Of a stretch of 64,000 nucleotides of DNA, positions 16,752-21,324 are shown piece by piece. A model generated the notes under the pieces. It did no database searches and was not told the origin of the DNA. It saw only the letters and a program-made list of their open reading frames with translations. Every line of letters begins with the position of its first letter. Positions within the stretch are counted from its first letter, which is position 1. The position numbers and the translations under genes were made by a program. Origin of the DNA: Fusicatenibacter sp. (GTDB lineage: Bacteria; Bacillota; Clostridia; Lachnospirales; Lachnospiraceae); NCBI GenBank assembly GCA_017887445.1, contig JAGHIA010000070.1:1-64000 (forward strand). The letters are read 5' to 3'.

Positions 16752-17300
16752 ATGAGCAGTATTCTAGTGGCATTTCCAAAACAAGAAGACGGAAAACGGA
16801 TCGAACGGATGCTGACCGGATACGGTTTTTCTGTCGACCACATCTGCACGACGGCTGCTCAGGCGCTTGGTGAGATGAACCTTCTCGGCGGCGGTGTGAT
16901 TATTTGCGGCTACCGGCTGCCGGATATGTTTTTTTCAGAGCTTCGGGAATGTATGCCATCCTCCTTTGAGATGCTTCTGATCGCGTCGGAACGCACCCTC
17001 GGACAGATTGACGGCGGCGGCGTTGTAGCCCTTTCGATGCCGCTTCGCGCCTGCGACCTGGCGGAAACCCTGCAGATGATGCTGTACCCGAAGAAGAAAA
17101 AGACCACGCCGTCCCGGAAAATGAGAGACCCGAAGGAACAGCAGATCATTGATTCCGCAAAGAATCTGCTGATGGAACGGAATCATCTCACCGAGGTCGA
17201 AGCGCACCGCTATCTGCAGAAATGCAGTATGGACAGCGGCACCAATCTTGTGGAGACCGCACAGATGGTGCTGACATTATTGGACTTTGAAAGGAACTGA
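16752..17300 (+). CDS. ANTAR-domain response regulator (RNA-binding antiterminator)
   Basis: degenerate receiver domain plus C-terminal [39 protein letters not shown]. Confidence 0.85.
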
Positions 17301-17304
17301 ACAA

Positions 17305-18519
17305 ATGTTTAAGATCAACGAAAATTACCTGAAACTGCCTGGCAGTTATCTGTTTTCCACCATCGCGAAAAAGGTAGCCGCCTATACAGAGGCGCATCCA
17401 AAAGCCGATATTATCCGTCTGGGCATCGGCGACGTGACCCAGCCCATCGCCCCGGCAATCCTGGAAGCGGTTCACAAAGCCACGGACGAGATGGGAACCT
17501 CTCAGGGATTCCACGGCTACGCGCCGGATCTGGGATATGAATTTCTGCGCAGCGTCATTGCCAGAGAGGATTTCCAGTCCCGAGGCTGCGACATTTCCGC
17601 CGACGAGATCTTCGTCTCCGACGGAGCGAAATGCGACTGCGGAAACATCCAGGAGATTTTCAGCCTGGACAACCGCGTCGCCGTATGTGATCCGGTATAT
17701 CCGGTCTATGTGGATTCCAACATCATGGCAGGACGGGGCGGCGTCTATGACACGGTCACAGAACGGTTCTCCGACATCATCTACATGCCCTGCACCGCCG
17801 AAAACAATTTCGCGCCGCAGCTGCCAGAAGAGACACCGGACCTGATCTACCTGTGCTTCCCCAACAACCCCACCGGCTCTGTGCTGACCAAAGACCAACT
17901 GCAGCAGTGGGTAGATTATGCCAACAAAAACGGGGCGGTCATCCTCTACGACGCGGCCTACGAGGCCTATATTTCCGAGGACAACGTTCCCCACTCCATC
18001 TACGAGTGCCAGGGAGCGCGCACCTGTGCCATCGAATTCCGCTCGTTTTCCAAAAACGCCGGATTCACCGGCATGCGCCTTGGATTTACCGTAGTACCCA
18101 AGGACTTAAAGTGCGGCGATGTCATGCTGCACACCCTCTGGGCACGCCGCCACGGAACCAAATACAATGGCGCTCCCTACATCATCCAGAAAGCCGGAGA
18201 GGCCGTATACTCCCCGGAAGGAAAGGCTCAGCTGAAGGAGCAGGTGGCTTACTACATGAAAAACGCCCGCGTCATCTACGACGGACTGAAAGCTGCGGGA
18301 TACACCGTGTCCGGCGGCGTCAACTCCCCCTATATCTGGATGAAGACCCCGGACGGCATGAGTTCCTGGGAGTTCTTTGACTACCTGCTGGAGCGGGCAA
18401 ACGTGGTTGGTACGCCGGGTTCCGGGTTTGGGCCCAGCGGCGAAGGGTACTTCCGGCTGACCGCTTTCGGGACTTATGAAAATACCGTGAGGGCTGTCGA
18501 GCGCGTAAGGGGGATTTAA
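17305..18519 (+). CDS. dapL: LL-diaminopimelate aminotransferase
   Basis: [46 protein letters not shown]. Confidence 0.95.
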
Positions 18520-18520
18520 G

Positions 18521-18868
18521 GCGGACGAAAGCCAGGGGAAACCTGACCGCAGCGGCAGGCGGGGTGCAAGGCGCGGGAAGCGCGGGAGGGGCGCGGCGTA
18601 TGGAATGCGTGCTCACTCCGACATCCGGACAGCGGCGGGAGAAATGTGCGCCGTTCGTCGAGCGGACATGGAGGTTCCTCTTTCCTTTCTGTCTTTGTGT
18701 CCGCTCGCGCCCGGCGTACATTTCTCCCGCCGCTGTCCGTCTGTAGTCGCAAGCACTGCATTTCCATACGCCGCGCCCCTCCCGCACTTCCTCGCGCCTT
18801 GCACCCCGCCTGCGCCGCGGTCAGGTTTCCCCTGGCTTTCTGTCTTTGGCGACGGTCGGAGTGAAGGC
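18521..18868. repeat. large imperfect inverted-repeat element 1 (about 330 bp)
   Basis: core arms AAAGCCAGGGGAAACCTGACCGC (18528..18550) and reverse complement (18817..18839), pairing inward to the apical GGAGGTT loop. Confidence 0.9.
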
Positions 18869-18947
18869 GATTGTGTTGTTTGCATAAATTGCGTTAAGAA
18901 ACCATTCGCTGCAAAGAAATCATTGGATTTTTAAATGTGTTTACAAC

Positions 18948-19034
18948 TTTTAACGGTTGCGGCAAAAGCTGCGAACAATCGCAAAGCCTATCGCCCTCGT
19001 TCGTCCGCAGCCAAAGCCAGAAAGGGGCGGGAGG
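18948..19034 (+). repeat. direct repeat copy A (TTTTAACGGTTGCGGCAAAAGCTGCGAACAATCGCAAAGCCTATCGCCCTCGTTCGTCCGCAGCCAAAGCCAGAAAGGGG)
   Basis: near-identical to 19122..19208, offset 174 bp. Confidence 0.9.
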
Positions 19035-19121
19035 CTGCCGAGTTTCCCCTGGCTTTCTGTCTTTGGCGACGGTTGAAGTGAAGGCGATCGTGCTTTTTTT
19101 ATCCCGTATATGCTATTCCAT

Positions 19122-19208
19122 TTTTAACGGTTGCGGCAAAAGCTGCGAACAATCGCAAAACCTATCGCCCTCGTTCGTCCGCAGCCAAAGACAGAAAGGG
19201 GTGGGAGA
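19122..19208 (+). repeat. direct repeat copy B, left flank of inverted-repeat element 2
   Basis: near-identical to 18948..19034. Confidence 0.9.
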
Positions 19209-19546
19209 CTGCCGGGTTCCCTCTGGCCTTATTCCCCGGCGGCTCTCTGGCGAACGTGTGCGCGGCGCTGGCTGGCACGGAGCGTATGGAAATGCAGTGC
19301 TTGCGACTACAGGCGGACGCGGGAGGGGAGACTGTCCGCCGGGCGCAGAGCGCCAGAAAACAATCGCACAATAAACCTCCGGCCGCTCTGCGAACGGCGA
19401 ACAGACTCCCCTCCCACGTCCGAATGTCGGAGTGAGCACGCATTCCATATGCTCCGCGCCAGCCAGCGCCGCGCACACGTCCGCCAGAGAGCCGCCGGGG
19501 AATAAGGCCAGAGGGAACCCGGCAGTCTCGTACCCCTTTCGTCCCC
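19178..19546. repeat. large imperfect inverted-repeat element 2 (about 365 bp), opposite orientation to element 1
   Basis: perfect 48-bp arm pair 19205..19252 / 19482..19529 plus inner stem CAGAGCG/CGCTCTG. Confidence 0.92.
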
Positions 19547-19601: not shown

Positions 19602-19900
19602 AATTAATAGCTGTGAAGGAAACTCTGCAAGTGAAACCTGACAGGAAGCGGATGTCACCGACTGAGAGCATCTGCATGGGGGAAGCCTGCAATAGGGAAC
19701 ATTCCGGAGCTGGTCTGTTGAACACGGCGATGGCGCAACAATTCAGAACGTGCTTTCACCCAGTAGGCAGACCCGTGGATACGCGTTAAGTATAAAATGA
19801 GATGGCGTCAAAGGCGACGCAATGCGGGTGGTACCGCGGGAATCTTGAATCACTCCCGTCCCGGAGCAGAAATCAGAATTCTGTTCCGGGACTTTTTTGT
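19602..19900 (+). ncRNA. T-box leader upstream of aspS2-gatCAB
   Basis: T-box core TGGTACCGCG at 19829..19838, terminator at 19858..19898, aminoacyl-tRNA synthetase gene downstream. Confidence 0.93.
19858..19898 (+). terminator. T-box terminator
   Basis: GTCCCGGAGCAGAA..TTCTGTTCCGGGAC followed by TTTTTTG. Confidence 0.9.
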
Positions 19901-19995: not shown

Positions 19996-21324
19996 ATGGA
20001 ATTTGTAACAGGTGTAACACAGCGTAGCGAATGGAGCATTGCCGATCTGACAGCGGCTGCGGAGCAGTCCGAGGGAAAGATCCGGGGCGCCGTCCACAAT
20101 ATCCGCAGCATGGGGGAGATTTCCTTCCTCATCCTCCGCAGATACGACGGACTGGTGCAGTGTGTCTGTGAAGAAAATAATTCCGGCGTATCTCTGAGAA
20201 CTCTGAAGGAAGGCGCAACGGTGGAAGCCGAGGGCATTGCCCGCCGGGAAAGCCGCGCGCCGGGCGGGACGGAGCTTCGTCTCACTGGTCTTCGTGTTCT
20301 CTCGGAACCGGTGGATCCCATGCCGCTTCCCATCAGCAAGTGGAAGATGCACACGTCTCTGGAGGCGTTGCTGAACAACCGTCCGATCTCCCTTCGCAAC
20401 CTGCGGGAGAGGGCAAAGTTCCGTATCCAGGAGACCATCACCCGTTCTTTTCGGGATTTCCTTTACAGCCAGAACTTTACGGAAATCCATACGCCGAAAA
20501 TCGGCGCCCGGGGCGCGGAGGGCGGCGCGAACATTTTCAAGCTGGATTATTTCCACCATCCGGCGGTGCTGGCCCAGAGCCCTCAGTTTTATAAACAGAT
20601 GATGGTCGGTGTGTTTGACCGGGTCTTTGAGACGGGACCGGTGTTCCGGGCGGAGAAGCACAACACCAAGCGCCATCTGAACGAATATACCAGCCTGGAC
20701 TTCGAGATGGGTTATATCGATGATTTTACGGAGATTATGGCCATGGAGACCGGATTCCTCCAGTACATGGTGGAGGAACTGAAGAAACGCTGTGAGAAAG
20801 AGCTGAGCATGCTGGAGGTCGTCCTTCCGGATACGGAAAAGATCCCCTGCGTACCCTTTGCCGAGGCGAAACGGCTGGTGTCTGAAACCTACGGCCGCCC
20901 CATCCGCAGTCCCTACGACCTGGAGCCGGAAGAAGAAGAGCTGATCGGCCGGTACTTCAAGGAAACCTGCGGCGCGGACTTCGTGTTCGTCACCCATTAT
21001 CCGTCGAAAAAACGTCCTTTCTACGCCATGGACGATCCGGCGGACCCGAAATATACCTTAAGCTTCGACCTGCTGTTCCGCGGCCTGGAGGTCACCACCG
21101 GAGGCCAGCGGATCCACGATTACCCGGCCCTTGCCAAAAAGATCCAGGACCGTGGAATGAGCGAGGAGGGGATGGAGCAGTACCTGAGCGCGTTCCGTCA
21201 CGGAATGCCGCCCCACGGCGGCCTGGGCATCGGCCTGGAGCGTCTGACCATGCAGCTGATCGGCGAGGACAACGTGCGGGAGACCACGCTGTTCCCCAGA
21301 GATATGAGCCGCCTGGAGCCCTGA
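19996..21324 (+). CDS. archaeal-type (likely non-discriminating) aspartyl-tRNA synthetase
   Basis: FRAEKHNTKRHLNEYTSLDFEMGYI, GGQRIHDY, GLGIGLERLTMQL; gatCAB immediately downstream. Confidence 0.88.
   Translation: MEFVTGVTQRSEWSIADLTAAAEQSEGKIRGAVHNIRSMGEISFLILRRYDGLVQCVCEENNSGVSLRTLKEGATVEAEGIARRESRAPGGTELRLTGLRVLSEPVDPMPLPISKWKMHTSLEALLNNRPISLRNLRERAKFRIQETITRSFRDFLYSQNFTEIHTPKIGARGAEGGANIFKLDYFHHPAVLAQSPQFYKQMMVGVFDRVFETGPVFRAEKHNTKRHLNEYTSLDFEMGYIDDFTEIMAMETGFLQYMVEELKKRCEKELSMLEVVLPDTEKIPCVPFAEAKRLVSETYGRPIRSPYDLEPEEEELIGRYFKETCGADFVFVTHYPSKKRPFYAMDDPADPKYTLSFDLLFRGLEVTTGGQRIHDYPALAKKIQDRGMSEEGMEQYLSAFRHGMPPHGGLGIGLERLTMQLIGEDNVRETTLFPRDMSRLEP

Follow-up and report, generated by a model that had tools for sequence, protein, structure and literature searches.

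Two giant hairpins between dapL and the T-box leader of aspS in Fusicatenibacter sp. are members of a dispersed palindromic repeat family

Two hairpins in the dapL-aspS gap

What kind of element are the two giant hairpins that occupy, in opposite orientation, the gap between dapL and the T-box leader of aspS in Fusicatenibacter sp., and how do their long arms stay complementary? In the window, i.e., the whole stretch of 64,000 nucleotides that was analyzed, the upstream neighbor is dapL, encoding LL-diaminopimelate aminotransferase (17287-18519, + strand; TIGR03542, 601 bits), and downstream follow the T-box leader of the aminoacyl-tRNA synthetase gene (19604-19866, + strand; RF00230, 72 bits, E 3e-15) and that gene itself, which codes for a non-discriminating aspartyl-tRNA synthetase (19996-21324, + strand; NF003483, 558 bits). 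Both dapL and the leader lie outside the elements. With 72 bits the T-box leader stays below the Rfam gathering score of 93 and is therefore missed by a default Rfam scan.

Element 1 lies on the + strand and extends from its tag at 18523 to about 18842. The unpaired 5' tag GGAC (18523-18526), read directly from the sequence, begins 3 nt past the dapL stop codon and is followed by a giant type A hairpin with lower stem, internal loop, upper helix and apical loop (18527-18840, + strand; inverted repeats I5, I6, I8, and I10; self-palindrome 274 bits) and by a G-rich tail (18841-18873, + strand), for which the family consensus is TGGTTGTGGCGGCG..GGGGTGAGGGCGG. The 5' side of the internal loop, TGCTCACTCCGACAT (18610-18624, + strand), is conserved in at least 41 genome copies, and its 3' side, TGTAGTCGCAAGCACTGCATTTCCATA, was located at 18742-18768 (+ strand) by motif search. 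Element 2 is reversed and runs on the - strand from its tag at 19544 down to about 19192. Its unpaired tag GGAC (19541-19544, - strand; CTTTCGTCC at 19536) forms the outer end of the convergent pair, the type A hairpin itself covers 19194-19540 (- strand; repeats I1 and I4; self-palindrome 358 bits), and the tail (19160-19193, - strand, read from the sequence) points toward element 1. Motif search placed the two sides of its internal loop at 19424-19438 (5' side) and 19285-19311 (3' side), both on the - strand. A relic of collapsed hairpin arms and tails is found between the two elements at 18948-19098 (no strand assigned) and is marked by the direct repeats D1 (18948-19056 and 19122-19230, 93%) and D2 (18825-18881 and 19042-19098, 91%); this relic is evidence for duplication and deletion at the dapL-aspS locus.

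The initial annotation had described two long inverted repeats at this place, and the folding check bears this out. The RNA folding energies are -287 kcal/mol for element 1 and -330 kcal/mol for element 2, with fold z-scores of -21.7 and -32.2, respectively, and 0 of 100 shuffles was as good. The perfect 48-bp arm attributed to element 2 is present as well (19205-19252 with 19482-19529), compared to 24 bp for the longest perfect arm of element 1. Moreover, the middle internal loop is kept in both elements as originally noted: TGCTCACTCCGACAT and its partner TGTAGTCGCAAGCACTGCATTTCCATA each occur twice in the 64-kb window (0.08 and 0.00 expected, respectively), and only in the two elements. The outer motif GACGAAAG / CTTTCTGTCTTTGGC is indeed common to elements 1 and 2, whereas family-wide only GGAC-G ... 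C-TGG remains of it, and the apical GGAGGTT...TTTCTG, believed at first to be conserved, turned out to be specific to these two elements and is not conserved in the family.

A dispersed family restricted to one genus

The two hairpins of the window are members of a dispersed family that is so far confined to one genus of gut bacteria. With element 1 as query, 40 matches were obtained in its own genome (G000, a 3.9-Mb draft of 192 contigs, in which fold-backs at contig ends may be artefacts), and the loop pattern alone detects at least 41 type A cores there, compared to 0 for the reversed-pattern control. Types A and B together amount to about 50 dispersed palindromic copies with lengths of 200-500 bases, the hairpin being mostly about 210-370 nt long. 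The layout of type A units is an unpaired 5' GGAC tag, a long variable stem, an internal loop, an upper helix, an apical part that is variable among copies, and an unpaired TGG tail. With the hairpin bases set by arm alignment alone and independently of the tag, GGAC stands directly 5' of them in 50 of 62 copies, vs. 3.8% at random positions. On the 3' side, TGG is followed by the G-rich tail, which can be traced for about 35 nt before it fades. The conserved collar and internal loop read CTCACTCCG / AGTCGCAAG, and the purine adjoining the internal loop covaries with its partner (RC / GY). Above lies a conserved upper helix of 25 bp (CGGACA-N13-TGTTCG / CGGACA-N13-TGTCCG), whose spacer measures 13 in 45 of 52 copies. 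In element 1 the TGTTCG half of this helix is missing, which makes it a slightly degenerate member of the family. The stems range from 50 to 150 bp and exceed 100 bp in many copies; the arm sequences differ from copy to copy and the conserved parts are central. Hence the description of conserved loops inside variable, self-complementary stems, which had been derived from two copies, is seen across the family.

Type B units share the GGAC...TGG base with type A, but their internal loop is another one and their head is a three-way junction. Sites are found at L070:9457-9740 and at the loci L157-L188, with about 12 copies each in G000, G003, and G005 and one in G001; no further copies were detected among 61 relatives. 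The two types are tied together because an A-B heterodimer exists, namely one tag-outside A-B pair in G005 (L119). Counted without one pair column, a T.G common to 11 related copies, the mismatches in the type B head are about 20 A.C vs. 5 G.T.

Carriers are four of the seven genomes of the genus (G000, G001, G003, and G005), with 10-41 copies each. Besides the genome under study these are Candidatus Fusicatenibacter merdavium, Ca. F. intestinigallinarum, and a record entitled Lacrimispora saccharolytica An817, so that many further copies are known from the own genome and three congeners. The other three members of the genus (G002, G004, and G006) are without the family. Among 397 Lachnospiraceae genomes, a sample outside of which the other three carriers lie, the exact loop pattern is present in the own genome only. 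Beyond the genus a single site with one mismatch was found in G016, which belongs to another genus, and is taken as chance. Furthermore, the exact pattern has no match in IMG/VR viral contigs, and neither phage nor plasmid records gave a match.

Other palindromic repeats were noticed as well. A separate repeat of about 133 bp (L070:8058-8190, equivalent to G000:C55:12057-12189) contains GTAACAGTTCAGC..GCTGAACTGTTAC palindromes, ends with ..GCACAGACCTGGCTGAACTGTTAC and has more than 60 copies of 86-98% identity in G000, G001, G003, and G005, so that its carriers are the four that also have the giant hairpins. The short palindrome TGTAACAGTTCAGCAAGGCTGAACTGTTACA at 1749-1779 of the window is the same word as in this repeat. 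L067:1564-1725 and L065:2083-2304 are further long palindromic repeats with AGAGTGTGTTTGAAAATT..AATTTTCAAACACACTCT-like ends, apparently of another dispersed family.

The relative orientation of neighboring units is not random. All nine A-A or A-B neighbors less than 2 kb apart are convergent with the tags outside (p about 4e-6 under random orientation, a value which, like those of the mismatch tests below, suffers from related copies being not fully independent), and one B-B pair, located close to the end of a contig, is arranged in tandem. According to simple codon-usage gene calls, nearly all copies are intergenic. They are scattered next to unrelated chromosomal genes, some along the direction of transcription and others against it. 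When the gene before a copy is sense-oriented, the GGAC end lies 1-19 bp past its stop codon in 19 of 22 cases; otherwise the tag is typically found 50-150 bp upstream of a start codon. We take this placement to mean that insertions are tolerated only in the stretch that separates a stop codon from the promoter following it.

The loci are polymorphic between species, with presence and absence, scars and hybrids. At the dapL-aspS locus, G000 contains the two hairpins, G001 a decayed remnant and G005 both outer ends as a scar, and there is no element in G003 and the outgroups. At the C55 locus a pair is present in G000 and G005, G003 harbors a fused hybrid consisting of the left unit's start and the right unit, and G001, G002, G004, and G006 have no element. 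Filled and empty loci were compared by eye at two loci with regard to target-site duplication, where species flanks of about 84% identity make the junctions imprecise. Many loci are common to two or three species, so that the activity of the family need not be recent.

Spread of the units and maintenance of the arms

Orthologous hairpins have arms that are about 80% identical between species, compared to about 84% for the flanks, and each of these hairpins is 90-100% self-complementary. In ten independent orthologue comparisons, 137 stem columns differ between the species and are paired in both, 87 contain any mismatch and 375 are unchanged; the stem covariation which the initial annotation had named as a check is thus present. 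Indels follow the same rule, as 67 indel columns are mirrored in both arms vs. 37 in one arm, and length changes of the two arms include +29/+28, -23/-21, -16/-17, and +10/+9. Template switching is an established cause of multi-base mirrored changes that keep arms complementary (PMC8794818). Such quasipalindrome correction resembles what is seen in the giant hairpins, namely mirrored multi-base changes with the arms kept complementary; that work concerns stems of RNA genes, whereas here the stems belong to a repeat family and are 50-150 bp long. Therefore, the arms appear to be kept complementary mainly by arm-to-arm copying at the DNA level and not by an RNA function of each stem.

The reading that we prefer, with a probability of roughly 0.6, is that of dispersed, non-autonomous REP/REPIN-like palindromic repeats of exceptional size, which were copied in trans into spacers, whose arms are maintained by template switching and whose type A head is selected. 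A hairpin-type mobile element, one of the two possibilities considered at the outset, is consequently the best class. As to the mechanism of mobility, we infer that the units were once copied into spacers between stop codon and promoter by a protein acting in trans, which would read the base with tag and tail as well as the head in single-stranded form. After insertion, the long stem would be kept complementary mainly by template-switch copying between the arms during replication, and the type A head would be held by sequence- and strand-specific selection. The Y1 transposase profile PF01797 has 0 matches in the draft assemblies G000 and G001. G003 contains an IS200-like Y1 gene, and inspection of its locus revealed that GGAC hairpins are not at its flanks. 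A reverse transcriptase partner, or a retron RNA, was also considered and rejected: PF00078 does not track with the elements and has no match in the carriers G003 and G005. The protein that spread the elements would then have been lost or be of an unrecognised kind. It is tentatively conceivable, although we doubt it, that the family represents a new class of mobile element. It would move as one huge folded strand, of RNA or ssDNA, whose interchangeable heads sit on a common GGAC/TGG base; the protein recognising it would be related neither to RAYT transposases nor to reverse transcriptases, and the stems would evolve as free-running, self-templated palindromes. The family also poses the question how some fifty near-perfect palindromes, each 200-500 bp long, are tolerated in a bacterium that has kept its SbcD gene. 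An explanation by loss of SbcCD was rejected on the basis of SbcD, whose gene is present in seven of seven congeners.

The standard way of proving a functional RNA structure is to show that its paired bases covary, and a large structured non-coding RNA family, with the stem covariation reflecting selection for RNA folding of the whole hairpin, would also go along with the extreme folding energies and the conserved internal loops. A selected RNA fold should, however, show on the transcribed strand more G.U pairs than A.C mismatches. Away from the loop, the lower stem contains 60 G.T vs. 71 A.C mismatches, and because they are about equal, the covariation there is no evidence for a folded RNA; on account of this strand symmetry, RNA selection along the whole stem was rejected, and the symmetry argues that no such selection is needed there. 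In contrast, the upper helix of type A has 20 G.T vs. 1 A.C (Fisher p 1e-5 against the lower stem, with related copies again not fully independent), and the 20 bp adjoining the internal loop have 21 vs. 7. As strand-biased mutation would also affect the lower stem, we infer from these mismatches that folding of the sense strand is under selection in the type A head, either as RNA or as ssDNA. The initially suspected selection on a folded structure is hence retained for the type A head and abandoned for the whole element. The branched head of type B, where two or more Watson-Crick types are seen at 34 of 47 pairs, speaks for an RNA too, whereas its mismatches (G.T:A.C = 16:20 in the head and 28:20 in the base) lack a G.U excess; the count without the shared T.G column hints that the antisense strand may be the folded one in type B. 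The RNA family is also opposed by the indels mirrored in both arms and by the lack of a fixed orientation of the copies with regard to transcription. Moreover, there are at least 50 copies, their stems vary and some loci have lost them, which suggests that no essential role is tied to a particular locus. In addition, no match at the gathering score was obtained in the window with Rfam 15, in agreement with the first impression that no named class can be recognised; the sub-threshold hits are mostly to microRNA families and fall on both strands, which is what any long hairpin would give. Altogether we consider an RNA family unlikely. The repeats thus covary extensively, with mirrored indels, and yet most of the stem is without the strand signature of an RNA while the type A head has one, and the family is therefore naturally suited to distinguishing palindrome maintenance by template switching from RNA selection via G.U and A.C mismatches.

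Bacterial MITEs are short, non-coding, dispersed inverted-repeat elements that are presumably moved in trans, and the same is true for the giant hairpins, which are in addition intergenic and polymorphic. An ordinary MITE with very long terminal inverted repeats, a conventional DDE transposase and target-site duplication is nevertheless quite unlikely. GGAC and TGG at the two ends do not form an inverted repeat, the arms vary from copy to copy and provide no common terminal inverted repeat, no cognate transposase was found, the conserved parts are central, and the dimers are tag-outside as in REPs. Bacterial MITEs are reviewed in PMC10969869. Still less can be said for gene-border structures selected as transcription boundaries, terminators or protectors of 3' mRNA ends, which the position of the GGAC end shortly past the stop codon would suggest and which we regard as very unlikely. 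In tandem gene contexts 21 copies are antisense to both neighbors vs. 9 that are sense, the base is without a U-tract, orthologous loci show loss or collapse of the elements, and the same placement between stop codon and promoter would also be left by purifying selection against other insertions. An assembly artefact at palindromes, as might be thought since many contigs end in hairpins and the suspect contig-end fold-backs L029 and L044 include host promoter sequence, has a negligible probability, because independent assemblies, one of them an isolate record, have the elements at orthologous positions with different stems, both flanks intact and imperfect arms.

Relation to known palindromic repeats

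Integron attC sites are imperfect hairpins of a single strand that lie just past stop codons; their stems vary, whereas unpaired features are conserved. The giant hairpins share all of these properties; however, there is no cassette array here and the conserved core words differ by eye. A closer relation can be seen to the tagged REPs, which comprise the GTAG and CGTC super-families, are palindromes of 20-40 bp with stems of 5-13 bp and form dimers known as REPINs or BIMEs (PMC3733652). Like these (PMC3733652), the giant hairpins are extragenic palindromes with tens of copies downstream of genes, they have an unpaired tag of 4 nt and an unpaired tail of 3 nt, and tag-outside (HH) dimers predominate, here in nine of nine A-A or A-B pairs. 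CGTC REPs are furthermore without a dedicated transposase (PMC3733652), and none has been found for the giant hairpins either, whereas, in contrast to GTAG REPs, no RAYT/Y1 gene was detected in this genome. The tag and tail differ, being GGAC and TGG here and GTAG or CGTC with CCA in REPs (PMC3733652); GACG as found here is the reverse complement of CGTC, but stands at the opposite end relative to the tail. In the parts of the REP literature that were searched, no GGAC class is described. The host is a member of the Firmicutes, a word absent from the main text of PMC3733652. Finally, the stems of 50-150 bp contrast with the 5-13 bp of tagged REPs (PMC3733652), and conserved internal loops, large heads and copy-specific stem sequences distinguish the giant hairpins further. 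As their size, tag, tail and heads match no REP family in PMC3733652, we call them REP-like and not REPs, and on this reading the REP/REPIN kind would come to include repeats an order of magnitude larger.
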